NCBI GenBank assembly: GCA_020248905.1
Contig: JADCGR010000023.1
Span: 1 to 64,000, forward strand
Direction: 5' to 3'
DNA: 64,000 bases
Source: Curvibacter sp.
GTDB lineage: Bacteria > Pseudomonadota > Gammaproteobacteria > Burkholderiales > Burkholderiaceae_C
Under the pieces are notes generated by a model. That model saw only the letters and a list, made by a program, of their open reading frames with translations. It did no database searches and had not been told where the DNA came from. Position numbers and translations under genes: made by a program. Shown piece after piece: positions 14,717-45,696 of the stretch; within the stretch, counting starts at the first letter, position 1, and every line of letters begins with the position of its first letter.

Positions 14717-14909
14717 GGCGGCCTTTTTTGTCAGCTCAAACATACTCAAGCGGCTCTAACCGAATCAAAGTCTAGCAGTCCTAGGCATATCGCCCAGGAA
14801 TTGCGAAAGCCTGGCACGGTCCCCCGTGCACAGCCGTGACCAGGCTTGATGGGGTAAGTCCAGAGAATGACGCCCTCCTGATCCTCGTAGTCCCCCTGTC
14901 TCCATTTGC

Positions 14910-15359: not shown

Positions 15360-15364
15360 TCGGG

Positions 15365-15778: not shown

Positions 15779-15779
15779 G

Positions 15780-16163
15780 TCAGGTTCCTTCACCCTTGGC
15801 AAAACCCCGCAACCAGGGGTCAAGGTGTGCGATGTCAAATGTTCCGGTCTCGAACATCTCGATCATCTCGGCGTGAATCTGCATCGGAGCGCGTTTCAAC
15901 TGCCAGCCATTGATCCGCAAGAACACGTCAGCAGCGGCAAAGGCGATGCGTTTGTTGCCATCCACGAATGGATGGTTGATTGCCAAGCTTTCCAGCAGCG
16001 CAGCCGCTTCAGCCACGATGTCGTCGTAGTAGCCGGTCTGCGGGCGGAACAAGGCGGCCTCCAGCGCGCCAGGATCTCGCACGCCCGGTGCGCCCCCGTA
16101 GCGCTGCATCAGCACGGCGTGCATCCCGAGCACATCGGCCACGGTCAAGTAGTCGCGCAGCAC
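15780..16163 (-). CDS. doc: Doc-type Fic-domain toxin
   Basis: A 127-residue Fic-fold protein with the Doc core HPFVDGNKR (64-72), whose histidine, aspartate and basic residues form the active site. Doc kinases phosphorylate and inactivate elongation factor Tu. The start DYLTVADVLGMHAVLMQRYGG and the stretch ALEAALFRPQTGYY are typical of Doc. It begins 3 bp after its antitoxin, with which it forms a type II toxin-antitoxin module. The catalytic motif looks intact. Confidence 0.88.
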   Translation of the reverse strand: MLRDYLTVADVLGMHAVLMQRYGGAPGVRDPGALEAALFRPQTGYYDDIVAEAAALLESLAINHPFVDGNKRIAFAAADVFLRINGWQLKRAPMQIHAEMIEMFETGTFDIAHLDPWLRGFAKGEGT

Positions 16164-16166
16164 GGC

Positions 16167-16397
16167 TTACTTGGCCAGTTCACGGTAGAGGCTGTCAAAC
16201 TCGTCCAGACTGGACGCGAACGAGGCCATCACATGGCGGCGCGGACGTTCTTTCTGTTGCCGGTCGATGTAGTCGCGCAGGGCATCATCGAGCACCGCCT
16301 GGAACTGGCGTCCCTGGCTTTCTGCAATCTGGCGCAACGCCGCCAACACATCGGGCGCGGCTTGGGAAGAAAATTTTTCGCGAACGGCAGCGGTCAT
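16167..16397 (-). CDS. ribbon-helix-helix antitoxin of the Doc toxin
   Basis: A 76-residue protein from the ATG at 16397, chosen because GGAGAG lies 5 bp upstream; an in-frame ATG at 16412 lacks such a site. The middle (PDVLAALRQIAESQGRQFQAVLDDALRDYIDRQQ) is a ribbon-helix-helix DNA-binding unit and the acidic C-terminus (SLDEFDSLYRELAK) would cap the Doc active site. The upstream region (16410-16434) repeats CATGAT twice around an AT-rich core, a plausible operator. This RHH partner replaces the Phd antitoxin seen in phage P1. Confidence 0.78.
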   Translation of the reverse strand: MTAAVREKFSSQAAPDVLAALRQIAESQGRQFQAVLDDALRDYIDRQQKERPRRHVMASFASSLDEFDSLYRELAK

Positions 16398-16681
16398 GGT
16401 TCTCTCCATCATGATTCATCTTGATGCTTCATGATAGAGCAAGATGGGCGCGTTTACCATTGTGTGAATTGCGTTCGATGCCTGACTGGCCGCCTTGGTT
16501 GACAGCGAACACATACGCGTAAGTTTTTGATTTTGCAAGATCAACATCTGCGCCTACCCGCAGGTCAAACGGAAAATAGAGACGGCTCTGGCTAAGAAAG
16601 TGACCGATTTCGGGCGTTTCGGCTGGTGGCCACCCGCAGCACAGGTGGCCGGAAGCCCGCGTAGCGCGGGGATTTCAGGCA

Positions 16682-16712
16682 AGAAAAGGGCTCGGAGATC
16701 ATCCGAGCCCTT
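16682..16712 (-). terminator. rho-independent terminator, minus strand
   Basis: AAGGGCTCGG (16686-16695) and CCGAGCCCTT (16703-16712) form a perfect 10-bp stem with a 7-base loop. Reading the minus strand, the stem is followed by a run of T (TTTTCTT). It would end transcription arriving from the HMA-MauE gene side. Confidence 0.75.
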
Positions 16713-16720
16713 GTAGATGG

Positions 16721-16745
16721 TGGTGGAATACGGAATTGAACCCAG
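16721..16745 (-). other. tRNA/tmRNA 3'-end-like sequence, possible attachment site
   Basis: On the minus strand this reads GGGTTCAATTCC and then ends TTCCACCA, like the T-loop and CCA end of a tRNA or tmRNA. A proper T-stem does not form and no 5' part of a tRNA was found upstream. It could be a partial copy left by a tRNA-targeting integrase, just before the minus-strand terminator. Weak evidence. Confidence 0.3.
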
Positions 16746-16821
16746 AACCGCTCTTGCAACCCTTGGGGGAATTTGATGGCATTCGTGCCCTCATTTCGGA
16801 AAAATAAAATAGCCAAGAGCA

Positions 16822-17634
16822 CTACATGGATTGAATCAACATCAACCCTGCCATCCCCGCCATCCCGACATCTTCGACGATGGTCACGGTGGACATTGGT
16901 AACTGGAAAACGCTACCCAAACAGGCGCAACGAATTTTCTGTTTGTTCATCACTGCACGGAAAACACCAATAGTTGAAAAACCCATAACAACCAGTGTTG
17001 CCAGACTAACCAAGATAGGCTGCCAATGCAGCAAATAAGCCACACCCAAAGCCAGTTCAACAAAGGGGTAGAGCGTACCCCAAGGATACCAACGTGCTGC
17101 CAAAATATCATAGCCAGCGTAGGCTTTAGCAAAACTTTTAATATCCAGAAATTTGAAAAAAGAAAACACCAAGAAAAACCCTGCCATAAAGTAACGCATG
17201 GTTTCCTCAGATGTCACACCTCCCAATGGGATTTGCACCAGCACGCTGGCAAATCCAATATAAGTGACAATCAGTAGCAAAGGACTGTAGATTGTCAGCC
17301 AAGATTGATCGTTTGGCACAATCGGCAGCGTGGTCGATACTGCGACTTTTGACTTGCCTTGCTTCGAGTGTAGGTCGTCGCCCGATCTTTCTGCTTGGTT
17401 ATCTACAATCTTAATAAGATAACGCGTGTCAGCCAAGGCGTTTTGCAGAACGACTAAATCGCCCTTAGGGCGAATCAAGACAGCGTGAGGTGGGTTGAGA
17501 TTCACTGTCACCGTTTCAGCAAACGGAACCAATGCTGCGTGAACACGCTTGACGCAGCCCTGGCATGTCATGCCATCAATCTGGTATGTTGATTCCTCCG
17601 AGCTTGCCGGATTAGTGACTACATTGTTGATCAT
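16822..17634 (-). CDS. HMA domain fused to MauE/DoxX-like membrane protein
   Basis: The ATG at 17634 gives 270 residues; an in-frame codon at 17661 is also possible. Residues 1-75 form a heavy-metal-associated domain with the metal-binding motif GMTCQGC (C24, C27). After a ~45-residue polar linker come four or more membrane helices (IYSPLLLIVTYIGFASVLV, YFMAGFFLVFSFFKFLDI, WYPWGTLYPFVELALGVAYLL, ILVSLATLVVMGFSTIGVF) of the MauE/DoxX type, with a cysteine pair KIRCACLGSVF near the end as in MauE-like redox proteins. It is the last gene of the CDF operon and overlaps the transglutaminase-like gene by about 23 bp. A role in metal or thiol handling at the inner membrane is inferred. Confidence 0.8.
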   Translation of the reverse strand: MINNVVTNPASSEESTYQIDGMTCQGCVKRVHAALVPFAETVTVNLNPPHAVLIRPKGDLVVLQNALADTRYLIKIVDNQAERSGDDLHSKQGKSKVAVSTTLPIVPNDQSWLTIYSPLLLIVTYIGFASVLVQIPLGGVTSEETMRYFMAGFFLVFSFFKFLDIKSFAKAYAGYDILAARWYPWGTLYPFVELALGVAYLLHWQPILVSLATLVVMGFSTIGVFRAVMNKQKIRCACLGSVFQLPMSTVTIVEDVGMAGMAGLMLIQSM

Positions 17635-18388
17635 GGTTGTCCGCGTGATTAAAACCACCACGAATGTTCGATATATTTTCGTTCAATCGTTTATAAAAAT
17701 AGTTACGATATAGCCATCCTTTGATTCCACGTAGATTCGTCCCTTGTTTGGCATAAAATTCGTCTGGGGATTTGTATATTCCTAGTTCTCGCGCAATGCC
17801 ATCATGCTGGATGAATGTATCGCCCCCCGTCCATTCTACCCGTGGTCTTTGCAGATCGGCTGTTGCTACTGCGTAACCAAGAAAAGGATGGGTGCAGTGA
17901 GTAAATCGATGCTGAACAGCCTCGAGGTAGCCACTGTCCAGAATCAAGCCCTCCAATGCTACCCATTGATTCCCAAGTCTCGCCTCAGCCCAAGTATGAA
18001 TAATCTCGCGCGGAGCCATGAAGTACACGAAGGGCGTGAGTGCCCCACGTTGTAAGTTTTTGTGTATCGTAAAGGCATGCAACCGGCACGGGATGCCAAC
18101 TGATCGCAACAAGGCCATAAGTAAGGTCGCTTTCGTGTTGCAGTGCCCGACTCCTTCCGCCAGAACACGCGAAGCTGGCATGTCGTCTGCATCAGAATTA
18201 TAGCCAAACAAAATTTCTTCTCGGCAAAACTCGTAGACTGCATGCGCAGCATCTTCCTGACGACTTTGCTGCCTCCACCCCCGCCTGTCCACGAGGGCTC
18301 GAATGTTGTCAGCTTGAAAATCAAGCATTCTGGTCGGTTGTAGGAGTTCCGGTGATTCCGGTGAACCTGGCAAGTTTTCGTCCGTCAT
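17612..18388 (-). CDS. transglutaminase-like (cysteine protease fold) protein
   Basis: A 258-residue cytosolic-looking protein (no signal peptide) with a transglutaminase-like core. The catalytic cysteine is C83 in GVGHCNTKATLLMALLRSVGIPCRLH, the histidine is H131 in IIHTWAEARLGNQWVALEG, and the third position after WVAL is a glutamate (E146) instead of the usual aspartate, with D151 nearby. Such domains act as peptidases, amidases or cross-linkers. It lies 3 bp downstream of the CDF transporter and overlaps the HMA-MauE gene, so it belongs to the same MerR-controlled operon. Its substrate is unknown. Confidence 0.75.
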   Translation of the reverse strand: MTDENLPGSPESPELLQPTRMLDFQADNIRALVDRRGWRQQSRQEDAAHAVYEFCREEILFGYNSDADDMPASRVLAEGVGHCNTKATLLMALLRSVGIPCRLHAFTIHKNLQRGALTPFVYFMAPREIIHTWAEARLGNQWVALEGLILDSGYLEAVQHRFTHCTHPFLGYAVATADLQRPRVEWTGGDTFIQHDGIARELGIYKSPDEFYAKQGTNLRGIKGWLYRNYFYKRLNENISNIRGGFNHADNHDQQCSH

Positions 18389-18391
18389 GGC

Positions 18392-19060
18392 TTATGCCTC
18401 TTCCTTTCGGAGGATAGATTTAAGCTGAGTGGAAGGCGAGTCAGTTTGGGCCGTCAACTCTCGATTGGCTTGGCGCACTATGGCAACCCCAGACGAGAGC
18501 GCCAGTCCTGCCATAATTACCGCGACGACGAGGTCAGGCCAACCACTACCAGTGCCAAACACTCCGGCGGCAGCCAGCATGACCGCAACATTTCCAATGG
18601 CATCGTTGCGACTGCACAGCCAGACAGATCGCATATTGGCGTCACCGTCACGAAAGGCATAAAGCATGAGGGCCACAGCGCCGTTCGCGAGCAACGCCAG
18701 TACTGCGACAACACCCATCGTTAGTGGTTCTGGCGGAATGCCGTTGATCGCGGCCCAACCCGTTTTGGCAAGCACGAACAGCCCGAACGCCACCATCGAC
18801 ATGCCTTTTACTATCGCGGCGCGTGATCGCCATGCCAGCCCCATAGATAGCACGGCTAGCGAGATTCCGTAGTTGGCAGCATCACCAGCGAAGTCAACCG
18901 CATCGGCAAACAGTGAAACCGAGCCTGACTTTAGCCCGCCAGCAATTTCGACAATGAACATCACGGCATTGAGGATCAGCGCAGCCCACAGTACCTTGCG
19001 ATAGCGCGGGCTAGCGGCAGTTTGTGATGAACAGGTAGAGCCACAGCAACTGGCAGACAT
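18392..19060 (-). CDS. CDF-family cation efflux transporter, short form
   Basis: A 222-residue membrane protein with six predicted helices of the cation diffusion facilitator fold. The N-terminus is cysteine-rich (SASCCGSTCSS), a likely metal-binding tail. The helix-2 metal motif is D56-x3-D60 (ADAVDFAGDAANY) and the helix-5 motif is C149-x3-D153 (WLCSRNDAIGN), unlike the His/Asp sites of zinc-specific CDFs. It ends soon after helix 6, so the usual cytosolic C-terminal dimerisation domain is missing, as in short bacterial homologues. It is divergent from the MerR gene, with the MerR operator between them. It probably exports a soft divalent metal such as Cd, Pb or Zn. Confidence 0.85.
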   Translation of the reverse strand: MSASCCGSTCSSQTAASPRYRKVLWAALILNAVMFIVEIAGGLKSGSVSLFADAVDFAGDAANYGISLAVLSMGLAWRSRAAIVKGMSMVAFGLFVLAKTGWAAINGIPPEPLTMGVVAVLALLANGAVALMLYAFRDGDANMRSVWLCSRNDAIGNVAVMLAAAGVFGTGSGWPDLVVAVIMAGLALSSGVAIVRQANRELTAQTDSPSTQLKSILRKEEA

Positions 19061-19085: not shown

Positions 19086-19118
19086 GTATTACACACCCTG
19101 TAGCAACTCCAGGGTCAA
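19086..19118 (-). promoter_or_regulatory. MerR-type operator and promoter of the CDF operon
   Basis: ACCCTG (19095-19100) and CAGGGT (19110-19115) form an inverted repeat with a 9-bp centre, the shape bound by MerR-family dimers. On the minus strand the -35 TTGACC (19118-19113) and a -10 such as TGTAAT (19093-19088) lie 19 bp apart, the overlong spacing that MerR activators correct. It sits between the divergent CDF and merR-like genes. A near-identical operator occurs at 24127-24147. Confidence 0.8.
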
Positions 19119-19159
19119 GCGAATAAAATGGGGCGACTTTCGTCAGCCAAGGAGTGTCA

Positions 19160-19660
19160 ATGGAAACTGCCATGCGCATCGGTGAACTGGGACAGGCCAC
19201 CGGCGTTGATATCGAAACGATTCGCTACTACGAGAAAACCGGGCTGCTGCCCGATCCTGTACGCAGTCACAACGGCTACCGTGCTTACAGCCAAGCGCAT
19301 CTGGAACGCTTGGCATTCATCCGTCACTGCCGGGCGCTGGATATTTCGCTTGCTGACGTGAGGCGGCTGCTTGACTTTGTCGCACATCCCGGTACCGACT
19401 GTGCCGATATCAACCAACTAATCGATGGGCAACTGGCCCGGGTGCGCGCACGACTGGAGAGTATGCGGGCACTTGAGCGACAACTCGCCGCTTTGCGTGG
19501 TCGGTGCGGCTCCAACCATGCCGCAGGGGAGTGCGGAATTCTTCATGATTTGGTTGCCGCTGCACACGGCGAGGCTTGTGCCTGCCATCTCGACACATCA
19601 ACTGGTTCATCGCAGGATTTTGTGCCAAGCAACAGGTTGATGCGTGGGACTATAAAATAA
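19160..19660 (+). CDS. MerR-family metal sensor, CadR/PbrR type
   Basis: A 166-residue regulator; the ATG at 19160 is preferred because AAGGAG lies 5 bp upstream (a GTG at 19154 is in frame). The N-terminus MRIGELGQATGVDIETIRYYEKTGLLPDPVRSHNGYRAY is the MerR winged helix. A long dimerisation helix follows, and the metal-binding cysteines are C81 (TDCADINQLID), C116 (GRCGSNH) and C125 (GECGILHDL). The C81/C116/C125 arrangement and CGILHDL are typical of Cd(II)/Pb(II) sensors; the loop of eight residues between the last two cysteines is slightly longer than in CadR. A C-terminal CACH adds possible ligands. It likely controls both operators in this region. Confidence 0.88.
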   Translation: METAMRIGELGQATGVDIETIRYYEKTGLLPDPVRSHNGYRAYSQAHLERLAFIRHCRALDISLADVRRLLDFVAHPGTDCADINQLIDGQLARVRARLESMRALERQLAALRGRCGSNHAAGECGILHDLVAAAHGEACACHLDTSTGSSQDFVPSNRLMRGTIK

Positions 19661-24118: not shown

Positions 24119-24150
24119 CATCATCCACCCTGTAGTTGCTACAGAGTCAA
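24119..24150 (-). promoter_or_regulatory. second MerR-type operator, in front of the RND operon
   Basis: ACCCTG (24127-24132) and CAGAGT (24142-24147) flank a 9-bp centre, matching the operator at 19095-19115 in sequence, length and position. On the minus strand the -35 is TTGACT (24150-24145) and a weak -10 (GATGAT, 24125-24120) lies 19 bp away. It overlaps the stop codon of the FAD gene and ends about 40 bp upstream of the RND start. This indicates control by the same MerR sensor. Confidence 0.75.
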
Positions 24151-25220
24151 GCAATGGTGTGAACTTTATTTTCTTGCATACTTTTAAGAACAAGGCCAAC
24201 CACCATGCTCGCATCACGCTCGCAGCCAAGTACTAGCTCTGATGCGCGGCAAGTAAGCCACTTACGTCCAACCACGAAAAAGCCGCTTTCTGACGTTCTC
24301 CCGTGGTGTTCGCTTAAGGATTTATCGCGATCAATCGATGGCAAAGCGATCCAGTCCGTATTCTCCCTGTACCCGACACACCAGATCACAGCATCGACGC
24401 GCTCGCGCGATCCGTCCGAAAAAAGGAGATGGTCGTCATGCACATCTACGGCACGAGGTTTTAGCTTGACGCCCCGAACGGCTAGCTGTCTATCGTTGGC
24501 AGATGCCGCAGGAATCGGATCACGCTTCTTCATGAGTTTGGCGACGATAGTGTCACGTCCAGCAAATAACAGGCCAATTTTGTCTAACCACCAGAACACA
24601 TCACGACCGAACACTACATTCGGAACAAGCTTGCGCACCCGCCCCCGCGCAAGGTAGACCTGATGCCGGTCAGCAAGCTCAAGTGCGATTTGCCGCCCGC
24701 TCGCACCGTCACCAATGACACCAACTCTCCATCCATCCGGCAAATGATCAGCATCGCGGAATTCAGATGCCACTATTTGGTGAACTGTCGAGGCCATTTT
24801 TTTTGCGAATATAGGGTAAGTTGGGATCTGGTTCGATCCTGTGGCGTTGATCACGGTCTTACTACTTAATCTGTTGCCATTCTCAAGTTCAGCAACAAAT
24901 CCAGCTTCAGATCGAAACAAGCGAATAACTCGCGTACTAAACGACACATTGATCGCCTTATCGATAGCAAATCGCTCGACGTGATCAGCAAATTCTTCGC
25001 CCGAAGGAAAACCGTTCTGGTCATCTGGCATGGATAGGTCAGCAAGACGACAAAATTGGCGAGAGGTGAAGAGGCGCAAGTTGCGCGGACGATTCCGCCA
25101 TACATCACCAGCACGAGCGGAGGCATCAACAACCAAGTAGTTTTTTACTCCAGCACGCCCAAGCAAATAACCGCACATGAGACCACAATGACCGCCACCA
25201 ATGATTAGACAATCTAGCAC
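24147..25220 (-). CDS. FAD/NAD(P)-dependent oxidoreductase (monooxygenase-like)
   Basis: A 357-residue two-dinucleotide-binding flavoprotein. The FAD Rossmann motif is LIIGGGHCGLMCGYLLGRAG near the N-terminus, the NAD(P) motif is RVGVIGDGASGRQIALELADR in the middle, and VINATGSNQIPTYP plus VIWCVGYRENTDW are the typical ATG motifs of this flavoprotein group. It resembles flavin-containing monooxygenases and YpdA/thioredoxin reductase-like enzymes but shows no CxxC redox pair. It is the last gene of the acyl-sulfur cluster, directly abutting the ACP gene. It probably oxidises the ACP-bound or released product; the reaction is unknown. Confidence 0.75.
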   Translation of the reverse strand: MLDCLIIGGGHCGLMCGYLLGRAGVKNYLVVDASARAGDVWRNRPRNLRLFTSRQFCRLADLSMPDDQNGFPSGEEFADHVERFAIDKAINVSFSTRVIRLFRSEAGFVAELENGNRLSSKTVINATGSNQIPTYPIFAKKMASTVHQIVASEFRDADHLPDGWRVGVIGDGASGRQIALELADRHQVYLARGRVRKLVPNVVFGRDVFWWLDKIGLLFAGRDTIVAKLMKKRDPIPAASANDRQLAVRGVKLKPRAVDVHDDHLLFSDGSRERVDAVIWCVGYRENTDWIALPSIDRDKSLSEHHGRTSESGFFVVGRKWLTCRASELVLGCERDASMVVGLVLKSMQENKVHTIA

Positions 25221-25583
25221 TTAAATCTCCAAGACTTTCTTTATATCCATCGGCGTACCACTAACCACCGACCAGACAAATTCAGAAAGCGCACGCACGG
25301 TAACGAAGTCATAGGCTGCGGTGGGGTCTAATGACACACCACACTCTTTCTCCAATCCAACGAGCAAGTTCACACGAGCAAGGGAATCGAGACCGATATA
25401 GTCGAAGGACATATCATCTCCGATGGGCTCGGTAAAATCGTGCCGCTCTTCCTGTAAATATTTTGTCAATAGAAATTTGATCCGCTCACTAACTTGCTCG
25501 ACGCTATTTGGCTTTGACACTATAGGAGCAGCTACGACCGATGCATTGGGGATGCTCTCTGGGGATGGAATTTTTGTAGTCAT
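25221..25583 (-). CDS. acyl carrier protein
   Basis: A 120-residue carrier protein from the ATG at 25583, which overlaps the stop of the AMP-ligase gene (ATGA). The phosphopantetheine site is S67 in DYIGLDSLARVNLL. The usual four-helix carrier fold follows to residue ~105, after a longer than normal N-terminal tail (~28 residues). It lacks the very acidic profile of fatty-acid-synthesis ACP and looks like a dedicated carrier loaded by the adjacent fatty-acyl-AMP ligase. It lies between the ligase and the FAD enzyme. Confidence 0.85.
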   Translation of the reverse strand: MTTKIPSPESIPNASVVAAPIVSKPNSVEQVSERIKFLLTKYLQEERHDFTEPIGDDMSFDYIGLDSLARVNLLVGLEKECGVSLDPTAAYDFVTVRALSEFVWSVVSGTPMDIKKVLEI

Positions 25584-27361
25584 AAGCCAATAGATTCGAG
25601 TTGCCGACCCACATGCTGACGAGTCGTAAATAGGGTCTGCGCGCAAACGTCGATTTCGCGCGAGGCATACATATCAGCGCAGCGCTTACGCTGGATTTTC
25701 CCGCTGGAGGTGCGAGGGATTTTTCCGTGCGATAGAAAATAAATGTCTCGCAGATGTACATCGTGAACTTGGGCTACCGCCATGCGCAAGGTATGAGCTA
25801 CTGAGTGGAATTCCTGGCCAGGGTAATCCTTGGTGCGACGAGGCAACTCAACATACGCCACAACGTTTGATCCGTCGTCCGAGTCCGCTGCAAATACTGC
25901 AGCCTGCACTTCACTGAAGATGGCAGATGTCTTGATCAGAGTCGATTCGATATCATGGGGATACAGATTGCGTCCACGAAAAATTATCAGTTCCTTGATT
26001 CGCCCAGTGATGAACAGTCCCTCGTTGTGGAAAAATCCGAGGTCACCTGTACGCATGAATGGGCCTTCGCCACACGAAGTCATTGCTTTAAATGTTTCCA
26101 TCGTCGCCACCGGATTCCGCCAATAGCCCGACGCCACACTGCTCCCAGCAAACCAGACTTCCCCGACTTGACCATTGCTCAAGATGCACCCAGTGGACGG
26201 GTCGACGATCACGATGCGATGTTCCAGTACTGGCCGACCACAGCACACGACCGTCTGTGTCGGCTGTGCCGAATCGTGCTGCACTTCGGCTCGGCCCACT
26301 GTCAACGCAGCACGACCCACAAACAGTGTGCGCAAGTTATTTGGAGCCACTCCCCCGGAAACCATCAACGTCGCCTCGGCGAGCCCATAGCACGGTTTGA
26401 TTGCGTCACTCCGCAAGCCAAAGCGTGAAAACCGGAGTTCAAATCGTTCAATAGCATCCGCGTTTACAGGCTCTGCTCCGCAGAAGATCGTCGATAGTGT
26501 GGACAAATCCAGTGCCTCTATCTCGTCATCCGGTTGCGCTTTCGCGCATAACTCCAGCGCGAAATTTGGCGCTGCGGTCGCCACCGCACGGTAGTGGCTA
26601 ATCATCTTCAGCCAGCGTAACGGTCGCTGAAGGAAGTGCAGTGGCGACATGAAGACATAATGCCCGCCAAGCGCGACAGGCTGCAGCGTGGCTCCAATCA
26701 GTCCCATGTCATGAAACTGCGGTAACCAGCCCGCCCCAACCAAGTTCTCAGGCAGATCTGCCGAGCGCTGGATGGCCCTCTCATTGGCCACCAGTTGGGC
26801 ATGGGTAATCATTACGCCTTTGGGTTCACCAGTCGATCCCGAGGTGTACTGCAGGAAAGCCAACTGCTCCTGTGCTGGCAATGTGACAGAACAGGTAACG
26901 ACCGGCTCGTCGGATTCGCAAAACACCGCGACATGCGATGTGTCTACACCTGAACCAAGCAGTCCTTCGCCTATCGAACTCCGGAGACTTCGTGTGGTAA
27001 GAACCGCTCGAGTCTCAGAGTCCAGGATGATCTGCCGCAGCCGCGCATAGTGGTGGCTGTTGCGCGCCAAATTCGCAGGCACGCTAACGGCACCGGCGTA
27101 GGCACACGCGAAGAACGCAATAATGAAGTCCAGACCTGACGGGAACAGTAATAGCACCGCTTTGTGCGACAGTCCACAATCTCGCAATTGCTGTCCGTAT
27201 GCAACGGCACGACTGCGAAGATCGCCGTATGTCAGGACGCGTTCTTGGTCGTCACCGTTAACGAGAAATGTGTAGGCACGCTCTTCTGGACGTGTCTGAG
27301 AGTAGTGTTCCAGACATTCCAGAATGGTACTGGCCGAATCAAGCGGGAGTTGTCTGTTCAT
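25580..27361 (-). CDS. fatty-acyl-AMP ligase
   Basis: A 593-residue adenylate-forming enzyme of the FAAL group. It shows the P-loop QYTSGSTGEPKGVMITH (A3 motif 172-183), WLPQFHDMGLIG (characteristic of FAAL proteins), CYGLAEATLMVSGG, the TGDLGFFHNEGLFITGR hinge motif and the C-terminal catalytic lysine in SSGKIQRKRC (K555). FAALs activate a fatty acid as the acyl-AMP and pass it to a carrier protein, not to coenzyme A. The adjacent ACP is the likely acceptor. It overlaps the cysteine desulfurase gene by 23 bp and the ACP gene by 4 bp. Confidence 0.9.
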   Translation of the reverse strand: MNRQLPLDSASTILECLEHYSQTRPEERAYTFLVNGDDQERVLTYGDLRSRAVAYGQQLRDCGLSHKAVLLLFPSGLDFIIAFFACAYAGAVSVPANLARNSHHYARLRQIILDSETRAVLTTRSLRSSIGEGLLGSGVDTSHVAVFCESDEPVVTCSVTLPAQEQLAFLQYTSGSTGEPKGVMITHAQLVANERAIQRSADLPENLVGAGWLPQFHDMGLIGATLQPVALGGHYVFMSPLHFLQRPLRWLKMISHYRAVATAAPNFALELCAKAQPDDEIEALDLSTLSTIFCGAEPVNADAIERFELRFSRFGLRSDAIKPCYGLAEATLMVSGGVAPNNLRTLFVGRAALTVGRAEVQHDSAQPTQTVVCCGRPVLEHRIVIVDPSTGCILSNGQVGEVWFAGSSVASGYWRNPVATMETFKAMTSCGEGPFMRTGDLGFFHNEGLFITGRIKELIIFRGRNLYPHDIESTLIKTSAIFSEVQAAVFAADSDDGSNVVAYVELPRRTKDYPGQEFHSVAHTLRMAVAQVHDVHLRDIYFLSHGKIPRTSSGKIQRKRCADMYASREIDVCAQTLFTTRQHVGRQLESIGL

Positions 27362-28544
27362 GATCGACGGCCTTGCTAATGCGTTGAAGGGAACGCACGC
27401 CTTGCGCCATCGCGTCCACGAAGCGTTTCAAATCCTGCTCTTCGGTGTACCGACCGAAACTCACGCGCAAAGTGGCTTTGATGGCGCGCTCGCTCACTCC
27501 CATCGCTACCAATACATGCGACAGCGATACCGTCTTGTTATTTGCACAGGCCGACCCAAGCGATACCTGGATGCCATGCATCTGATCAAGTATTGCAGCG
27601 AGGGCCTCAGCGCGAATACCATCAATGCAAACGCTGAGCGTATACGGCACTTGCTGCTCTGGATCGCTCGGCCCATGGAAAGACACACCCGGAACGCATT
27701 CGATCAGCAGACGGCTGAAGGTGATGCGGTAGTTGGCCGCCCGAAATACGAGCTCCGGCAGCACCGCATAGATCGCTTCAGCAGCTGCCCCCATCGCGAC
27801 GATCAGGCCAACGGCCTCGGTGCCTCCACGCAGGCCGCCTTCCTGGCCGCCACCGTGTAATAGCGGCTCGATGGTTAGGCCATGCCTGACGTAGAGACCA
27901 CCGACCCCCTTGGGGCCGTAGAATTTGTGCGCTGCGAACGACATGGTGTCCACGCCGAGCTCGTGCGCGTTGACGTGAATTTTTCCGACAGCTTGCACGC
28001 CATCAACGTGAAAGTGGATGTCACGCGCTCGGAGCAATGTAGAAATCTCACGGACAGGCTGTATGGTTCCGACCTCATTGTTCACCAACATGATCGAAAC
28101 CAGTTGGGTATTCGGACGTAGCACAGCCTCGACCGCTTCGGCTGAGACGATGCCTTCGGCATTTGGTTTGATCCGGGTCACCTCGAAGCCGAACACGCGC
28201 TCCAAGTAGGATGCGATCTCAAGCACTGAGGAGTGCTCGATACCGGACACGATGACATGCGCTGGCTGCGCGTGGCCAATGAAGCCGCGTGACGTCAATG
28301 CGCCTTTTATCGCCCAGTTGTTCGCTTCGGTTCCGCCTGAAGTGAACGTGAGTTCCGACGAGTCGCATCCTACCAGCCGAGCTACCTGCCTGCGGGCACT
28401 CTCCAGCCTCTGCTTTGAGAGATTCGCCAGCGAGTATTTGCTGGAGGGGTTGCCGAAATCGAGTAATGCGCCGTTGAGCGCCTCGATCGCTTGCTGACAC
28501 ATCGGGGTTGTGGCGTTGTAGTCGAAATAGCCTTGCAACGACAT
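27339..28544 (-). CDS. NifS/IscS-like cysteine desulfurase
   Basis: A 401-residue PLP enzyme; the ATG at 28544 is chosen because AAGGAG lies 7 bp upstream. The fold-type I signature is complete: FDYNATTPM at the start, TFTSGGTEANNWAIKGA, H104 stacking on PLP (SGIEHSSVLE), K207 in FAAHKFYGPKGVGG, and the persulfide-bearing C333 in SLGSACANNK. It removes sulfur from cysteine as an enzyme-bound persulfide. It lies between the IscU-like and FAAL genes, outside any isc, suf or nif operon. This suggests a dedicated sulfur supply for the pathway encoded here. Confidence 0.9.
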   Translation of the reverse strand: MSLQGYFDYNATTPMCQQAIEALNGALLDFGNPSSKYSLANLSKQRLESARRQVARLVGCDSSELTFTSGGTEANNWAIKGALTSRGFIGHAQPAHVIVSGIEHSSVLEIASYLERVFGFEVTRIKPNAEGIVSAEAVEAVLRPNTQLVSIMLVNNEVGTIQPVREISTLLRARDIHFHVDGVQAVGKIHVNAHELGVDTMSFAAHKFYGPKGVGGLYVRHGLTIEPLLHGGGQEGGLRGGTEAVGLIVAMGAAAEAIYAVLPELVFRAANYRITFSRLLIECVPGVSFHGPSDPEQQVPYTLSVCIDGIRAEALAAILDQMHGIQVSLGSACANNKTVSLSHVLVAMGVSERAIKATLRVSFGRYTEEQDLKRFVDAMAQGVRSLQRISKAVDHEQTTPA

Positions 28545-28554
28545 GACAATCTCC

Positions 28555-28920
28555 TTATTTTGCCGGAGCATGGATCTGCTTCAGCCGTTGAAACAGTGCC
28601 CTGAGCATTTCCAGGCAGTGGTGTTGCGAAGGCTCCAACTCGCCGAGCATCGTCTCAATATCGTCGTTGGACGTGTCCAACACCACGCTGAGCGGTTTGC
28701 CATCGATACAGGCACAGAAAACGTTACCGGTGGCCAGCGAAGTAGCGCACCCCCAGGCCTGATAGCGTGCTCGCTTGATGAAACCGTCTGTCACATCAAG
28801 TTGCACTCGAATGCGGTCGCCACAAACCGGGTTGCCGATTTCTATGGATGCGGTTGCCTCGTCGAGTTCCGATGCGAACGCAGGATCAGAGAAATTTTTG
28901 ACGATAATCTCATTGAACAT
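28555..28920 (-). CDS. IscU/NifU-like scaffold protein
   Basis: A 121-residue protein starting MFNEIIVKNFSDP (ATG at 28920 with GAGAG upstream). The three scaffold cysteines are present: C33 with D35 in GNPVCGDRIRV, C58 in WGCATSLATG and C102 in QHHCLEML. The aspartate that makes assembled clusters labile is kept. The LPPVK chaperone-recognition motif of housekeeping IscU is missing, which suggests it does not work with HscA. It is immediately upstream of the NifS-like gene, so it probably accepts its sulfur, either as a cluster or as a persulfide passed on to the product. Confidence 0.8.
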   Translation of the reverse strand: MFNEIIVKNFSDPAFASELDEATASIEIGNPVCGDRIRVQLDVTDGFIKRARYQAWGCATSLATGNVFCACIDGKPLSVVLDTSNDDIETMLGELEPSQHHCLEMLRALFQRLKQIHAPAK

Positions 28921-28928
28921 ATCGGCTC

Positions 28929-30104
28929 TCAGTTCGCAACCGGGCATACATTGGGAGAATCCTCGTCCATCTTTTTCTCAAGGTTGACGGCACAACAACC
29001 AAACTCCAATGACGACGGAGCGCGCATGATGTATTCCATTCGCTGGCCGCTACGTCCTGAAGGGCTATTACCAGGAACTAGAGAGACTATGTCTTCGGTA
29101 AGTATCATTCCCGGAGTAGCTAGCGCAAGAGGATCCAGTATGCCGAGCACGCCTTTTTCGCCAACGGGTACTTCCTTGCTGAGGTCGTTCATGTCACGAA
29201 CAGTCAAATGCACGTAGGGTGAGACATGTTTGATTTGGTGCTCGTCATCTATCGCCATCACGTTTGATTCGACGAGCGCATAAATATCGCGTACTCCATT
29301 GGGCTCAAGGCCAAGGTACTCCTCGCACATGAGATTGAACTCGCGGCGGGATATCATCTGACCGGTAAATCGTTTCCATCCACCTAAAGTGACGACGCGG
29401 CTGCCACGGTCGAGCTTAATGTGCTGACCCGTTTGCTTGAGAAACTGCAGCAGACGATAAATGAGGAACGGCGGGCCAATGATGTGGCGGGTGAACTGGT
29501 TCTCCCAAGTCTTGAGTTGAGCGAGCGCATCCTCCGGCACGAACCGCTCTTGTTTGACCATGAAGCGATGAGTGTCAAGCAGGCCTGCAAGCATGTTCAA
29601 CGCCTTGATCATTCCCATTTCCGGGATCTCTTCCGTGGACGGGCAGACATACAGACCCGCACCTTTGGAAATGCCGAGGAATTCGCGGTACATCGCATAG
29701 ATTGCAACAACGGCGACATCGACGGTGTCACTACAGCGACGCGAAATACTGGGTAACCCGCTGGTTCCAGTACTACGCATTTCATGCTCGATTGCGTGTA
29801 GCGGCTTGGATAGCAGTTCGTGGCTACTGGCTGACTTGAACTTGGCAATCGGGACAAGTGGGATCTTGATCAGATCCTCAAAGGTGAGAATCTGATCAGG
29901 ATGCACGCCCTTGCTGTCGCATGCCTCACGGTAGTAGGCATTATTCTCATAGTGATGCCGAAAAGCGTCGGAAATGAGCGCCAACTTGACACTATTGAGA
30001 TCATCCTGCGGCATCCGATAGAGCTCGGACACAGATGCGACAGCCGCAGCCAAGGGATCAAGTCCAAGCTGGCGAATCGACGTTACAAAGGCGTGGCTAG
30101 TCAT
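28929..30104 (-). CDS. LuxE/PaaK-family acyl-protein synthetase-like enzyme
   Basis: A 391-residue protein of the LuxE group; the ATG at 30104 is preferred because AGGGAG lies just upstream, although the frame stays open to 30164. Features include MRSTGTSGLPSISRRCSD (nucleotide-binding loop), GPPFLIYRLLQFL, VTLGGWKRFTGQMISRREF and, near the C-terminus, cysteines at about 370/371 (SLEFGCCAVNL) where LuxE proteins carry the acylated cysteine. LuxE activates a fatty acid with ATP and transfers the acyl group through that cysteine. No LuxC reductase or luciferase is present, so a bioluminescence role is unlikely. It is the first gene of the acyl-sulfur operon. Confidence 0.82.
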   Translation of the reverse strand: MTSHAFVTSIRQLGLDPLAAAVASVSELYRMPQDDLNSVKLALISDAFRHHYENNAYYREACDSKGVHPDQILTFEDLIKIPLVPIAKFKSASSHELLSKPLHAIEHEMRSTGTSGLPSISRRCSDTVDVAVVAIYAMYREFLGISKGAGLYVCPSTEEIPEMGMIKALNMLAGLLDTHRFMVKQERFVPEDALAQLKTWENQFTRHIIGPPFLIYRLLQFLKQTGQHIKLDRGSRVVTLGGWKRFTGQMISRREFNLMCEEYLGLEPNGVRDIYALVESNVMAIDDEHQIKHVSPYVHLTVRDMNDLSKEVPVGEKGVLGILDPLALATPGMILTEDIVSLVPGNSPSGRSGQRMEYIMRAPSSLEFGCCAVNLEKKMDEDSPNVCPVAN

Positions 30105-30164: not shown

Positions 30165-30168
30165 TTTC

Positions 30169-30253
30169 TTGCCTTGCCTTGCCTTGCCTTGCCTTGCCTT
30201 GCCTTGCCTTGCCTTGCCTTGCCTTGCCTTGCCTTGCCTTGCCTTGCCTTGCC
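30169..30253. repeat. pentanucleotide tandem repeat, TTGCC x17
   Basis: Seventeen perfect copies of TTGCC (GGCAA on the minus strand) cover 85 bases with no interruption. The tract stands directly upstream of the -35 box of the luxE-like gene, in the UP-element or activator position, and about 100 bp from the XRE gene on the other side. On the minus strand the luxE frame is open through the tract but meets TAG at 30260-30258, and I found no usable start above it. An effect on transcription is therefore more likely than translational phase switching. Confidence 0.95.
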
Positions 30254-34895: not shown

Positions 34896-35761
34896 TGGCA
34901 CTCCCCATCATCAGCGCCGACCAGCGCTTGGCCGAACCGCGCTGCGCCAAGATCGTGCTGGTCGGCGTGCCCGGCGCTGGCAAAACCAGTCAGCTCAAAA
35001 CCCTGCCGGAAGACAGCACGCTATTCGTCGATCTGGAAGCCGGTGACTTGGCCGTACAGGACTGGCGCGGCGACACCTTGCGGCCACGCTCCTGGCCGGA
35101 GTTTCGTGACCTCGTGGTATTCCTCGCCGGGCCAAATCCGGCTGCCAGTGCAGAACAGCCGTACTCGCAGGCGCACTTCGATGCCGTGTGCCAGCGCTTC
35201 GGTGACCCGACGCAACTCGCCAAGTACCGCACCTACTTTGTCGACTCGATCACGGTGCTCTCGCGCCTGTGTCTGGCCTGGGCCAAGACGCAGCCGCAGG
35301 CCTTCTCAGATCGCACCGGCAAACCGGACACACGCGGTGCCTATGGCCTGCTGGGCACCGAGATGATTTCGGCACTCACCCACTTGCAGCATGTGCGCGA
35401 CAAGCACGTCGTGTTCGTGGCCATCCTGGAAGAGAAGACCGACGAGTTCAATCGCCGTTACTTCGCCATTCAGTTGGAAGGCAGCAAGACCGCACTGGAA
35501 TTGCCCGGCGTGATTGACGAGGTCATCACCCTGGCTTTGCTGCGCCCGGATACGCCTGCCGATGGGACGGACGGCAGCACGGCAGCCACGCCAGCGCCAG
35601 TCAAACCCTTCCGAGCCTTCGTCACCCACACCGACAACCCTTGGGGCTACCCCGCCAAGGATCGCTCAGGCCGCCTCGACCCTATCGAAGAACCGCATCT
35701 TGGCAAGTTGATCGCCAAGAGCGCAGGCGCTCGCGCGGCTACCTCATCCACACATTCCTGA
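34895..35761 (+). CDS. RecA-fold ATP-binding protein, Sak4-like
   Basis: A 288-residue AAA_24/RecA-core protein with Walker A GVPGAGKT (24-31), a Walker B-like strand in YRTYFVDSITVLSRL and HVVFVAILEEKTDE downstream. Phage proteins of this type (Sak4) are single-strand annealing recombinases that act with an SSB-like protein; the following gene fits that partner. It is linked by a one-base overlap to the upstream gene. Nucleotide-binding is clear; the recombinase role is by family and context. Confidence 0.78.
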   Translation: MALPIISADQRLAEPRCAKIVLVGVPGAGKTSQLKTLPEDSTLFVDLEAGDLAVQDWRGDTLRPRSWPEFRDLVVFLAGPNPAASAEQPYSQAHFDAVCQRFGDPTQLAKYRTYFVDSITVLSRLCLAWAKTQPQAFSDRTGKPDTRGAYGLLGTEMISALTHLQHVRDKHVVFVAILEEKTDEFNRRYFAIQLEGSKTALELPGVIDEVITLALLRPDTPADGTDGSTAATPAPVKPFRAFVTHTDNPWGYPAKDRSGRLDPIEEPHLGKLIAKSAGARAATSSTHS

Positions 35762-35778
35762 TTTTGGAGAACCTCACC

Positions 35779-36420
35779 ATGACTTCGCAACACAGTAACT
35801 GGAACGACTTCAATGACGCTGGCCAACAGGCTGGTTTTGATCTGATCCCCAAGGGCACCCTGCTCAAGGTGCGCATGACCATCAAGCCGGGCGGATTCGA
35901 CGATCCCACGCGCGGCTGGACGGGCGGATGGGCCACTGAGTCGGATCAAACCGGCAGTGTTTATCTCAACGCCGAGTTCGTCGTGCTCGATGGCTCATTT
36001 GCCAAACGCAAGCTGTGGTCGACGATTGGCCTGCATTCCGCCAAGGGCGATGAGTGGGCCAATATGGGTCGGGCCTTCATCCGCGCCGCGCTCAATTCGG
36101 CGCGCGGCATCCAACCGGGTGACACCAGCGCACAGGCGCAGGCAGCACGGCGTATCCAGCATTTTGGCGAGATTGACGGCTTGGTCTTCGTGGGCCGCGT
36201 CGATGTCGAAAAAGACAGCCGTGGCGACGACAAGAACGCCATCAAACAAGCCATCGAGCCCGACCACAAGGATTACGCACGGTTGATGGCGGGTAGTACT
36301 TCGTCTGCAGCGAGTCCGACCGGCATGGCGTCATCTACCCCTGCGGCGGCAGTGCCGGTTGCACAGTCGAGCTACGCCAAACCCGCCACCGGCATCACCA
36401 AGCCCTCCTGGGCGCAATAA
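35779..36420 (+). CDS. SSB-like phage protein next to Sak4
   Basis: A 213-residue product starting MTSQHSNWNDFNDAGQQAGFDLIPKGTLLKVRMTIKPGG. The first ~150 residues alternate beta-strands and polar loops as in an OB-like single-strand binding domain (VYLNAEFVVLDGSFAKRKLWSTIGL), and the C-terminal ~50 residues are a low-complexity Ser/Ala/Pro tail, as in many SSBs. The tail ends KPSWAQ, without the acidic DDDIPF-type tip. Its position right after the Sak4-like gene supports a role in recombination. Fold assignment is inferred. Confidence 0.65.
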   Translation: MTSQHSNWNDFNDAGQQAGFDLIPKGTLLKVRMTIKPGGFDDPTRGWTGGWATESDQTGSVYLNAEFVVLDGSFAKRKLWSTIGLHSAKGDEWANMGRAFIRAALNSARGIQPGDTSAQAQAARRIQHFGEIDGLVFVGRVDVEKDSRGDDKNAIKQAIEPDHKDYARLMAGSTSSAASPTGMASSTPAAAVPVAQSSYAKPATGITKPSWAQ

Positions 36421-36429
36421 GGAGGGACT

Positions 36430-36909
36430 GTGAAATGTTGGGTTTGCCATCGACAAGCACGCGGCTATCGCCACTCGGATTTGCGATTCCGACCTGGCGA
36501 TCCGCGCCACCATCCCCTCGACTGGGTATTTTGTTCGCGCCGTTGTCAGGACGCATTCCACGCGCTGTACGGCGTGTGGAACAAGACCGAGCCGCCGTTG
36601 GGTCACACGCTGACCAGGGAGGTGCTCATGATTGACGCGACTGAACTGGAACGCGCGGCCATGCACCGCTGTCTGCGCCACTTCGGTGAGGCGGCGGGCG
36701 AGATCGGCTTCGACAAGCCGCTGGGCCACTACACCGAAGCCGAGGCACTGCGGGTCATCGACGCCATCGTGTCGTCCTACGTGGATTCGATGGCCCTCGC
36801 GCATCAAAACCTGCGCTATCCGCCAGTACGCGAGGCGGGCAAGGCGCTGCCCGCGCCGTGCAGCAATCCGTTTGCCGACATGGCCGACGACATTCCGTGG
36901 GAGGCGTGA
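36430..36909 (+). CDS. DUF6511-type phage zinc-finger protein
   Basis: A 159-residue product with a GTG start at 36430 and GGAGG just upstream. The N-terminus MKCWVCHRQARGYRHSD plus WVFCSRRCQDAFHALYG makes a four-cysteine zinc finger. The second half (EAAGEIGFDKPLGHYTEAEALRVIDAIVSSYVDSM) is helical. I recall this arrangement as DUF6511 in Proteobacterial prophages; the function is unknown. It overlaps the nuclease gene by one base (TGATG). Confidence 0.7.
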   Translation: MKCWVCHRQARGYRHSDLRFRPGDPRHHPLDWVFCSRRCQDAFHALYGVWNKTEPPLGHTLTREVLMIDATELERAAMHRCLRHFGEAAGEIGFDKPLGHYTEAEALRVIDAIVSSYVDSMALAHQNLRYPPVREAGKALPAPCSNPFADMADDIPWEA

Positions 36910-37667
36910 TGCTGGATTTCAACCATCGCCCCAAACCCCACGAGACCATCACCACGCTGATCGATGCCGCATTGGCGCACGAGCGGGCAGAGCAACCTGT
37001 CCGCACCTATCTCGGTGCATCGCGGCTCGGCATCTCCTGCGAACGGGCCTTGCAGTACGAGTACGCGGGAGCGCCTGTTGATCCTGCGCACGGGTTCTCT
37101 GGCCGGGTGCTGCGCATCTTTGAAGTTGGCCATGCCTTGGAAGCCTTGGCCATTCGCTGGCTGCGCATGGCTGGCTTTGATCTGCGCACCGTGGACGAGC
37201 AAGGATTGCAGTTCGGCTTTGCCGTGGCCGATGGCCGTATCGCTGGTCACTGCGACGGCATCGTGATCTCTGCTCCAGCCGAACTCGGACTCTCCGGCCC
37301 GATGCTCTGGGAGTGCAAGACGATGGCAGACAAGCACTGGCGTGACTGCGCCAAGAAGGGTGTCGCCATCGCCAAGCCCGTCTATGCCGCTCAATTGGCG
37401 CTGTACCAAGCCTATTTGCACGAGGCATGGCCCGGACTGGCGGACAACCCGGCCTTGTTCACGGCGATCAACAAGGACACGCAGGAGCTGTGGTTCGAGC
37501 TGGTGCCGTTTGATGGCTCACTTGCACAGCGCATGTCGGATCGTGGGGTGCGCTTGGTGCAGGCAACGCAAGCTCAGGAGTTGCTGCCACGCGGATTTTC
37601 TGAGCGCACGCATTTTGAGTGCCGCTTCTGCGCCTACCAAGAACGCTGCTGGGGAGGTGCCGCATGA
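36909..37667 (+). CDS. PD-(D/E)XK nuclease with likely Fe-S cluster (Cas4/AddB-like)
   Basis: A 252-residue nuclease. The active-site pattern is GHCDGIVI (D116) followed by LWECKTM (E135-x-K137), the PD-(D/E)XK core. Four cysteines in the Cas4/AddB spacing (C44 near the N-terminus; C238, C241 and C247 in CRFCAYQERCW) are expected to hold a 4Fe-4S cluster. Phage enzymes of this type resect DNA ends for recombination, matching the Sak4-like gene nearby. It is linked by overlaps on both sides (TGATG, ATGA). Confidence 0.85.
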   Translation: MLDFNHRPKPHETITTLIDAALAHERAEQPVRTYLGASRLGISCERALQYEYAGAPVDPAHGFSGRVLRIFEVGHALEALAIRWLRMAGFDLRTVDEQGLQFGFAVADGRIAGHCDGIVISAPAELGLSGPMLWECKTMADKHWRDCAKKGVAIAKPVYAAQLALYQAYLHEAWPGLADNPALFTAINKDTQELWFELVPFDGSLAQRMSDRGVRLVQATQAQELLPRGFSERTHFECRFCAYQERCWGGAA

Positions 37668-38077
37668 GTGCCACAACACCTCTGGAAGTGCGTCGTCGGC
37701 AACGCGCCAAGTTGCCGCCGCCACTGGTCACCATCCGCGCCATCGAAAAGCTCCTGCTGCGCCACATCAGCGCACCGCCGTCTGGCCCATTGCCAGAGCA
37801 ACGTTTGATCGTGGCTGTGATTTGCCAGGCCATTGCGGATCTGCGCTGCGGCACCACGGGTGAACAGCGACAGGCACGTCGGTTCCTGCTGGGCGATGAC
37901 CTCGGCGCTTGGGCGGCATGGGTCGATCTGCAGCCCAGTTTCATTCGTGAAGTGGCGGCGAAGACGCTGTACCTGTTACCCGTCGCCGAGGAGGCCGTCA
38001 CACCGTGCGAGCCATCTGGTGACCATTCAGAAAGGAGGCACGATGCTGGACTTCAACCCTATCACGCCCCCGCCTGA
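37664..38077 (+). CDS. phage protein of unknown function (137 aa)
   Basis: The ATG at 37664 overlaps the nuclease stop (ATGA), and the 3' end overlaps the primase-helicase start by 35 bp. The product is helical with LEVRRRQRAKLPPPLVTIRAIEKLLLRHI and REVAAKTLYLLPVAEEA. No family is recognised. The operon position between nuclease and primase suggests a replication-related role. Confidence 0.65.
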   Translation: MSATTPLEVRRRQRAKLPPPLVTIRAIEKLLLRHISAPPSGPLPEQRLIVAVICQAIADLRCGTTGEQRQARRFLLGDDLGAWAAWVDLQPSFIREVAAKTLYLLPVAEEAVTPCEPSGDHSERRHDAGLQPYHAPA

Positions 38078-40400: not shown

Positions 40401-40402
40401 CC

Positions 40403-41017: not shown

Positions 41018-41018
41018 C

Positions 41019-44985: not shown

Positions 44986-45024
44986 CTCTGGCTCCTTGGG
45001 GTTGATCGTTGCGACACCCGTAGT

Positions 45025-45065: not shown

Positions 45066-45082
45066 TTTCTCGATCTTTCTGA

Positions 45083-45598: not shown

Positions 45599-45639
45599 TT
45601 GCTTCTCCTTGTGCAAGGGGTTGATGGGGTGGCGTGATG

Positions 45640-45684: not shown

Positions 45685-45696
45685 GCAGGTTCTTGA

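Follow-up and report, generated by a model that had tools for sequence, protein, structure and literature searches.

A LuxE, IscU-like and NifS gene trio that recurs across bacteria and its possible role in thiocarboxylic acid formation

The DNA analysed here, hereafter the window, is a stretch of 64,000 nucleotides from Curvibacter sp. (contig JADCGR010000023.1, positions 1–64,000), to which all coordinates refer. At 24147–30104 it carries six closely packed genes on the minus strand for a LuxE-type acyl-adenylating enzyme, an IscU-like protein, a NifS-like cysteine desulfurase, a fatty acyl-AMP ligase (FAAL)-like enzyme, an acyl carrier protein (ACP) and a flavin adenine dinucleotide (FAD) enzyme. 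These genes form a real and intact group that did not arise by chance, and 43 of the 44 bacterial loci compared have the first three in succession on the same strand. Because the minimal set that travels together combines acyl activation with the delivery of sulfur from cysteine, the simplest product of the trio would be a thiocarboxylic acid (acyl-COSH), and from the sequence comparisons described below we consider the chances about evenly balanced that the cassette forms such a compound.

An earlier reading made from the window sequence alone (the sequence-only reading) had described six tightly packed genes in this order, and its description held, all six open reading frames being open, on the minus strand and supported by Pfam matches. 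The LuxE-type gene (P0006, 28929–30104; Pfam LuxE, 130.4 bits; tail residues Cys370-Cys371 within FGCCAVNLEK) is followed after 8 bases by the gene for the IscU-like protein, a putative sulfur acceptor or relay (P0005, 28555–28920; NifU_N, 69 bits; C33, D35, C58 and C102, no LPPVK), and this after 10 bases by the NifS-like gene (P0004, 27339–28544; Aminotran_5, 234 bits; K207 and C333). The FAAL-like gene (P0003, 25580–27361; AMP-binding, 224 bits, plus a DIP2-like AMP domain) overlaps that of NifS by 23 bases, the ACP gene (P0002, 25221–25583; PP-binding, 40 bits; Ser67) overlaps that of FAAL by 4 bases, and the block ends with the gene for the FAD/NAD(P) monooxygenase-like enzyme (P0001, 24147–25220; Pyr_redox_3, 75 bits). 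Among the families listed, which for FAAL and NifS were the best 25, no protein of the block reached a curated NCBIfam cut-off.

The 44 loci came from one scan of a species-genome collection with two peptide patterns taken from a two-row LuxE alignment; genes in relatives were six-frame open reading frames and tblastn matches, and part of the flanking genes was scanned. Host record titles indicated Pseudomonadota, one cyanobacterium and Bacillota. In L051, the exception to adjacency of the trio, LuxE is shortened and followed immediately by a DDE transposase, and the contig ends a little further on. A FAAL-type gene was found at 37 of the 44 loci, ACP at 38 (29 in the main count and nine where overlapping FAAL matches had masked it) and the FAD enzyme at 35, while MMPL, MFS and DUF1302 relatives were noted at 20, 13 and 8 loci, respectively. 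At two Clostridia loci the FAAL-type gene lay 5–7 kb away and was 27–29% identical. Four Bacilli loci (L049, L050, L052 and L053) retained the trio without a match to FAAL or ACP in the vicinity, which indicates that LuxE, IscU-like and NifS constitute the core of the set. Deefgea had the genes in the same order (83% DNA identity over 10.5 kb), and they were also carried by Priestia plasmids (LuxE 49% and IscU-like 38% identical in the best record, with FAAL in two pieces). The adjacency of the trio at 43 loci rules out that the sulfur genes are local to this genome, the finding that the sequence-only reading had named as fatal to its proposal, and shows that the dedicated sulfur pair is tied to acyl activation as a conserved unit far beyond this genome.

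The five larger proteins also diverged in parallel, their pairwise distances correlating with r = 0.89–0.97 (34–42 genomes) compared with a maximum of 0.22 in 999 permutations; three frameshifted loci (L024, L035 and L048) and the interrupted L051 were excluded from this comparison as well as from the IscU tree and NifS alignment described below. The set is rare. Among 397 Pseudomonadota, the LuxE profile (E ≤ 1e-50) matched two genomes beyond its own; one of these contained the trio, and the other gave a distant relative of 174 bits with no sulfur gene within a 4 kb stretch. Of 298 Bacilli, the centre genome aside, none was matched. None of 30 pattern matches in viral contigs was a relative.

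Several loci showed additional genes. A Nostocales record (L028) contained the six genes, but the exporter queries used found nothing there. In Xenorhabdus anantnagensis (L046) a second NifS-like gene and then an MFS gene (11216–13607) came right after the six-gene block. In Peribacillus (L048), ketoacyl synthase and acyltransferase-type polyketide synthase pieces were present in the block (approximately 11589–17825), and the IscU and NifS matches were each in two pieces. A phosphopantetheinyl transferase gene followed the block in L029 and L031.

The residues expected for sulfur mobilization, which the sequence-only reading had judged intact in the window, were conserved across the loci. In the NifS-like protein, K207, C333 and H104 were invariant in all 42 aligned sequences (L024, L035 and L048 excluded, L023 trimmed, L051 without NifS), as expected for a cysteine desulfurase. 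Scores against the NifS, IscS and DndA equivalog models were 363, 298.9 and 312.6 bits versus cut-offs of 530.75, 643.2 and 480, and P0004 was 39% identical to the other match in its genome. In the IscU-like protein, C33, D35 and C58 were present in 45 of 45 cluster proteins and C102 in 44, and the sequence ELEPSQxHC, with small variations, replaced LPPVKIHC, of which LPPVK is the site for the HscA chaperone. This protein resembled neither a housekeeping IscU scaffold (no LPPVK; 44.8 bits versus a cut-off of 192.4) nor SufU (no insert before the third cysteine; 55.7 versus 92.5 bits), and its score was also below the NifU model cut-off. A second, separate IscU/SufU match was found in 13 of 16 genomes searched and in the Curvibacter genome itself; of 15 such second-copy proteins from relatives and the own genome, 10 contained LPPVK and 5 were of the SufU form. 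The 42 cluster proteins formed one group apart from these 15 (support 0.74). Thus the pair resembles SufS/SufU and IscS/IscU in placing a desulfurase beside a three-cysteine acceptor of the NifU_N family but differs from both in its separate grouping, in ELEPSQxHC instead of LPPVKIHC or the SufU insert, and in scores below the family cut-offs. SufU acts as a sulfur relay.

A distinctive feature of the cluster LuxE, overlooked by the sequence-only reading, was a pair of adjacent cysteines in the C-terminal tail. Membership of P0006 in the superfamily was clear from Pfam PF04443 (gathering cut-off 24.9 bits) and from a match to the LuxE structure 7xc6 (E = 2e-30, residues 32–371), whereas its score of 129.2 bits was far below the 550-bit cut-off of the long-chain-fatty-acid--protein ligase equivalog. 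The tail sequence GCCA was typical of the cluster proteins, C371 being present in 46 of 46 and C370 in 45 (the exception being the transposon-cut L051). Among 14 other LuxE/PaaK-type proteins aligned, 11 had Gly-Cys, one had Asn-Cys and two PaaK-like sequences lacked the cysteine; none had Cys-Cys. C371 thus aligns with the LuxE tail cysteine, which we take to be the acyl-accepting residue, and C370 is additional. The only other conserved cysteine, C62, was shared with most of the LuxE-type outgroup. An AlphaFold2 model (mean predicted local distance difference test score, pLDDT, 83) indicated a PaaK/ANL-type fold in which the tail (residues 365–391) had pLDDT below 50 and was predicted to be disordered, as expected for a mobile arm. 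PaaK-type chains filled the 50 matches listed in a fold search with this model (template modelling, TM, score approximately 0.67 by query length), and 7xc6 was not among them. Together, these features suggest that the Cys-Cys tail is a plausible site at which sulfur meets the acyl group.

Compared with luciferase LuxE (7xc6), the protein belongs to the same family and keeps the tail cysteine but has the extra Cys370 and is accompanied in the block by sulfur genes, with neither LuxC nor LuxD seen there. A remnant of bioluminescence was considered and rejected because no LuxC/LuxD-like partner was seen and because the lux-type LuxE of a plasmid record lacked the Cys-Cys pair. On a Streptomyces plasmid (L093), LuxE- and LuxC-like genes lay beside YcaO, DUF692 and MBL-fold genes, with no sulfur gene annotated there.

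Enzymes encoded around the trio were consistent with loading and oxidation of an acyl chain. Fatty-acid--AMP ligase models were among the best NCBIfam fits listed for the FAAL-like protein, all below cut-off, and the L65-D66-S67 motif of ACP was present in 31 of 31 aligned sequences. The best solved matches to the FAD enzyme (4usr, 4c5o and 4a9w) were named monooxygenase or flavin monooxygenase, and the glycines of its two GxGxxG sites were invariant in 19 of 19 sequences. Seven Bacillota loci (L049, L050, L052, L053, L055, L059 and L060, from Bacilli and Clostridia) had, after NifS, an adjacent pair of UbiU/UbiV-like genes, which the sequence-only reading of the window had not noted; six of these had no FAD enzyme nearby and L055 had both. 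Either the FAD enzyme or the pair was present at 41 of 44 loci, a distribution that fits a shared oxidation step, the three with neither being L024 (at a contig end), L035 and L051.

Assignment of this pair was approximate. The first protein was a Peptidase_U32 match (L049) with UbiU- or TrhP-like scores, i.e., 48.2 (L050) and 63.4 bits (L060) for UbiU versus a cut-off of 440, the L060 protein scoring 65.5 bits for tRNA hydroxylase TrhP. The second scored 17.5 bits for UbiV in L050 and gave no match in L060 (cut-off 275) and contained four cysteines invariant in 6 of 6 aligned sequences. A structure search with a model of this protein gave weak barrel-type matches only (TM 0.3–0.5), which were not used. 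In the UbiU/UbiV study (PMC6747719), which concerns an O2-independent hydroxylase, the UbiV cysteine motif is CX12CX3C and that of UbiU is CX6CX16CX38C. The former spacing was exact in the four Bacilli rows, the two Clostridia rows showing CX14 or CX15, while the latter did not correspond to the invariant cysteines of the UbiU-like proteins. The system is thus like UbiU/UbiV in its adjacent U32/UbiU-like and UbiV-like genes, placed after NifS at 7 of 44 loci, but unlike it in scores far below the cut-offs and in the UbiU cysteines. Four Bacilli loci, L049 among them, also contained an acyl-CoA-dehydrogenase-type gene and an MFS exporter.

From the gene set, its conservation, the two signatures and the operator-like sites described below, we infer the following steps. 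NifS would desulfurize cysteine, holding the sulfur as a Cys333 persulfide, and the IscU-like protein would accept this sulfur on one of its cysteines, acting as a sulfur relay rather than an iron-sulfur (Fe-S) scaffold. LuxE would adenylate a carboxylic acid and keep the acyl group near its flexible tail, where one residue of Cys370-Cys371 may carry the acyl group or persulfide while the other accepts it or resolves the intermediate through a disulfide, with release of the thioacid. FAAL and ACP would serve to load the acyl chain. The flavin monooxygenase may then oxidize the intermediate, perhaps at sulfur, which would give an acylsulfenic acid, or else at nitrogen or carbon, and the transglutaminase-like enzyme encoded at some loci could catalyze acyl transfer or release. 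Export would be by MMPL-LolA-like and DUF1302 proteins, or by MFS or ABC proteins in other groups, and in part of a beta/gamma-proteobacterial subgroup expression would respond to a Cd/Pb-type MerR regulator. Taken as a whole, the scheme in which a swinging LuxE-type Cys-Cys tail takes persulfide from its own desulfurase and relay pair and converts fatty or aryl acids to thiocarboxylic acids, which are then oxidized by the flavin enzyme (or, in Bacillota, by an O2-independent UbiU/UbiV-like pair), exported and, in some hosts, metal-induced and able to bind soft metals, is put forward tentatively, as a possibility well short of an even chance.

A precedent for the oxidation step may be sulfenicin biosynthesis, in which a flavin enzyme reportedly adds a hydroxyl group to thiocarboxylic acid sulfur. 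The block likewise combines sulfur delivery and a flavin monooxygenase. Sulfenicin is the topic of Xue et al. (Nat. Chem. 2025). The PtmA3/PtmU4 cassette of thioplatensimycin, as described in PMC6006322, joins sulfur to an activated carboxylate to form a thiocarboxylic acid and is a small cassette reused in several pathways. The likeness is one of analogy: both would do the same job, thioacid formation, if the present interpretation is right, but in PtmA3/PtmU4 the enzymes are a CoA ligase and a CoA-transferase of type III, which draw on the cell's sulfur-carrier proteins (PMC6006322), whereas here the parts are LuxE, IscU-like and NifS, and no CoA-transferase was found among 18 window proteins scanned with Pfam. 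In agreement with the sequence-only reading, which had not recognized the cluster, no characterized cluster with the same six genes and no description of such a pathway was recognized in a literature search at the level of abstracts, in which matches were noisy and subscription papers mostly lay outside.

Several observations weigh against thioacid formation as set out above. The operon encodes two acyl-activating enzymes, LuxE and FAAL, and the order of their steps is ambiguous; in L049 an acetate--CoA-ligase-like gene lies 2 kb upstream, so LuxE need not be the sole acyl-activating enzyme there. Strict replacement of the FAD enzyme by UbiU/UbiV is weakened by L055, whose possession of both shows that they are not simple substitutes, and by L035, which has neither in its stretch; moreover, the UbiU/UbiV-like pair probably needs Fe-S clusters, and the IscU-like proteins keep the residues that hold nascent clusters, so that cluster assembly is possible. 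In Pseudoduganella, a longer stretch still did not reveal the transglutaminase-like gene. The metal link is limited to a few loci, 16 of 44 having an AraC-type gene instead, and the locus set, having been based on LuxE patterns, leans to close LuxE relatives.

The points concerning clusters are taken furthest by the proposal that the IscU-like protein and NifS build an Fe-S cluster for a pathway enzyme (the UbiU/UbiV-like pair or LuxE) and that no sulfur enters the product. Retention of C33, D35, C58 and C102 is in keeping with this, as are the UbiV-like proteins with four cysteines in 6 of 6 sequences and, in the four Bacilli rows, the motif known from PMC6747719; these cysteines make Fe-S clients likely in the UbiU/UbiV-like loci. 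However, no Fe-S protein was seen among the identified genes of 34 loci with the FAD enzyme and without the pair (part of the flanking genes scanned), the conserved cysteines of LuxE were C62, C370 and C371 only, the first common to most of the outgroup, and the HscA site has been lost. An ordinary Fe-S operon was therefore not preferred, given the separate IscU-like group without LPPVK and the absence of a visible Fe-S protein in FAD-type blocks, and is kept as an unlikely rival. Quite unlikely, in our judgement, is entry of sulfur into the acyl product as an acyl persulfide, disulfide or thiol lipid instead of a thiocarboxylic acid, which comes near the persulfide lipid of the sequence-only reading: a Cys-Cys tail could equally release an acyl persulfide, and FAAL and ACP, together with the MMPL exporter, hint at a product of lipid type, but no dedicated reductase or thiol-forming enzyme was recognized in the recurring set and the trio is retained in four Bacilli loci without a FAAL or ACP match.

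The name of the LuxE family, acyl-protein synthetase, and the CadR-type operator-like sites in five genomes would suit a set that acylates or repairs a protein (e.g., by S-acylation of the IscU-like protein) in defence against metal or redox stress, with no secreted small molecule. This we regard as improbable, for the trio is accompanied by unrelated types of exporter (MMPL at 20 and MFS at 13 of 44 loci), ACP and FAAL are usual and polyketide synthase pieces occur in L048, a combination that looks like metabolite biosynthesis. Hardly credible, finally, is a chance neighbourhood or a decayed mobile island; the low-G+C setting beside a prophage and the lack of a close LuxE in 99 related genomes would fit it, but all frames are open, Deefgea has the same order, catalytic residues are conserved and the trio is adjacent at all loci but one. 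Thiocarboxylic acid formation was thus preferred to each of these accounts.

Beyond the limits given by the sequence-only reading (24147–30104), which contained the six genes but proved too narrow, other genes recurred with the block. On the minus strand of the window these were an MMPL-family RND exporter fused to a LolA_like domain (P0007, 20932–24087; MMPL 147 and LolA_like 182 bits), a DUF1302-like protein that is probably its outer-membrane partner (P0008, 19694–20923; 37 bits) and a transglutaminase-like protein (17612–18388; Transglut_core, 61 bits), the last, like DUF1302, at 8 of 44 loci. The transglutaminase-like gene, not mentioned in that reading, was found in Deefgea (81% identity), Azohydromonas, two Cellvibrio, Pseudomonas huaxiensis, Actibacterium and two Lysinibacillus (40–42%), five flanks having been lengthened to look for it; in Pseudomonas huaxiensis it lay 2.6 kb beyond DUF1302 on the opposite strand and in Actibacterium just upstream of LuxE. 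Its Cys83, His131 and Asp151 were invariant in 9 of 9 aligned sequences, and no PDB sequence match was found. In andrimid biosynthesis a transglutaminase homologue is said to make amide bonds. Between this gene and that of DUF1302, the window contains genes for a CDF cation efflux protein (18392–19060, minus strand; Cation_efflux, 61 bits) and a CadR/PbrR-type MerR regulator (19154–19660, plus strand; TIGR02047, 158.4 bits versus a cut-off of 151.45).

The metal-sensor operator that the sequence-only reading had placed before the exporter was present in the sequence as a 9-3-9 dyad, ACCCTGTAG-N3-CTACAGAGT, at 24127–24147 (minus strand), between the FAD enzyme stop and the MMPL start. This candidate CadR/MerR-type operator, with a TTGACT element, lies in the exporter promoter region, and a near copy, the candidate operator before the CDF gene, was noted between the CDF and CadR-type genes (19095–19115, minus strand); both resemble MerR-type dyads behind a TTGAC element, judged by sequence match, and the CadR-type protein is the probable regulator of both. 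In an independent test, the two window sites were compared with the DNA preceding LuxE (400 bp) and MMPL (260 bp) in relatives. Ahead of LuxE, each of two Pseudomonas matched at 16 of 18 positions, while the best values for Pseudoduganella and Shewanella abyssi (L047) were 14 and 13, respectively; ahead of MMPL nothing exceeded 13. When one 290-base stretch was shuffled 200 times, the best value was 13, reached in 5 shuffles. A composite TTGAC-plus-dyad pattern of 17 fixed positions was derived from the window, Pseudomonas and Pseudoduganella sites, so that matches to these were expected. In 1.93 million position-strand pairs, where opposite-strand rows were the same dyads read backwards, it occurred in full at five places: two in the window, one in Deefgea and one 322–325 bp before LuxE in each of two Pseudomonas. 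The Deefgea site precedes a ZntA-like ATPase directly upstream of LuxE, with a CadR-like gene alongside, and in Pseudoduganella 16 of 17 positions matched at 112 bp before LuxE, compared with 14 for the next, unrelated site. Each operator-like site was oriented toward the gene it would control.

A census of CadR-family genes (E ≤ 1e-25) in 30 genomes, i.e., the own genome and those of 29 of the 44 loci, found 14 such genes in nine subgroup genomes, of which 3 lay at the block compared with 0.06 expected (a rough Poisson estimate, chosen after the fact, of approximately 3e-5). For the own genome and Pseudoduganella the sole CadR-family gene was the one at the block, while none of 11 such genes in 21 other genomes lay within the stretches around it. 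Besides the window, a CadR-type gene occurred in such stretches in Deefgea and Pseudoduganella, and CDF relatives were near the block at 3 of 44 loci only (two of Cytobacillus and one of Cellvibrio). The operator-like site was absent from 4 of the 8 relatives with DUF1302 (L020, L021, L022 and L025). Thus, of the expected company of MerR, CDF and RND genes, the MMPL exporter recurred, CDF was rejected as a recurring part and is a local addition, and CadR was so rejected only in part. Metal-linked regulation is supported for part of the beta/gamma-proteobacterial subgroup only, by the candidate operators that precede the exporter in the window and LuxE in one Pseudoduganella and two Pseudomonas genomes. 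In that part, predicted regulation by a Cd/Pb-type MerR protein makes a soft-metal chelator the favoured role, and the regulation and exporters together suggest a metal-binding secreted function.

G+C content was approximately 50–57% across 16–30 kb of the window compared with 60–66% on both sides, and the block is flanked on the right by prophage-type genes (approximately 34900–48500; AAA_24 protein, D5_N protein and GpA terminase) and on the left by HsdM. A close LuxE was found in 0 of 99 related genomes, the best score being 60.7 bits versus 884.5 for the own gene. The low-G+C island, its prophage neighbours and this absence from relatives point to acquisition of the block by horizontal gain. 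Just upstream of LuxE, a perfect tandem array of the 5-base unit CTTGC (17.2 copies, 30168–30253) was noted, in which slippage could shift promoter spacing. A gene for a protein with an HMA domain and a MauE-like membrane part (16822–17661) overlaps the transglutaminase-like gene and had no relative at the recurring loci (E ≤ 1e-5).

If the proposal of thiocarboxylic acid formation is true, the cassette would represent a second, self-contained route to thiocarboxylic acids with its own sulfur source, movable between hosts as a unit and findable by two short sequence signatures. An orphan IscU/NifU branch would also gain a role other than Fe-S assembly, and LuxE-type enzymes one other than light production; in some bacteria, a secreted sulfur metabolite would be tied to the sensing of heavy metals.

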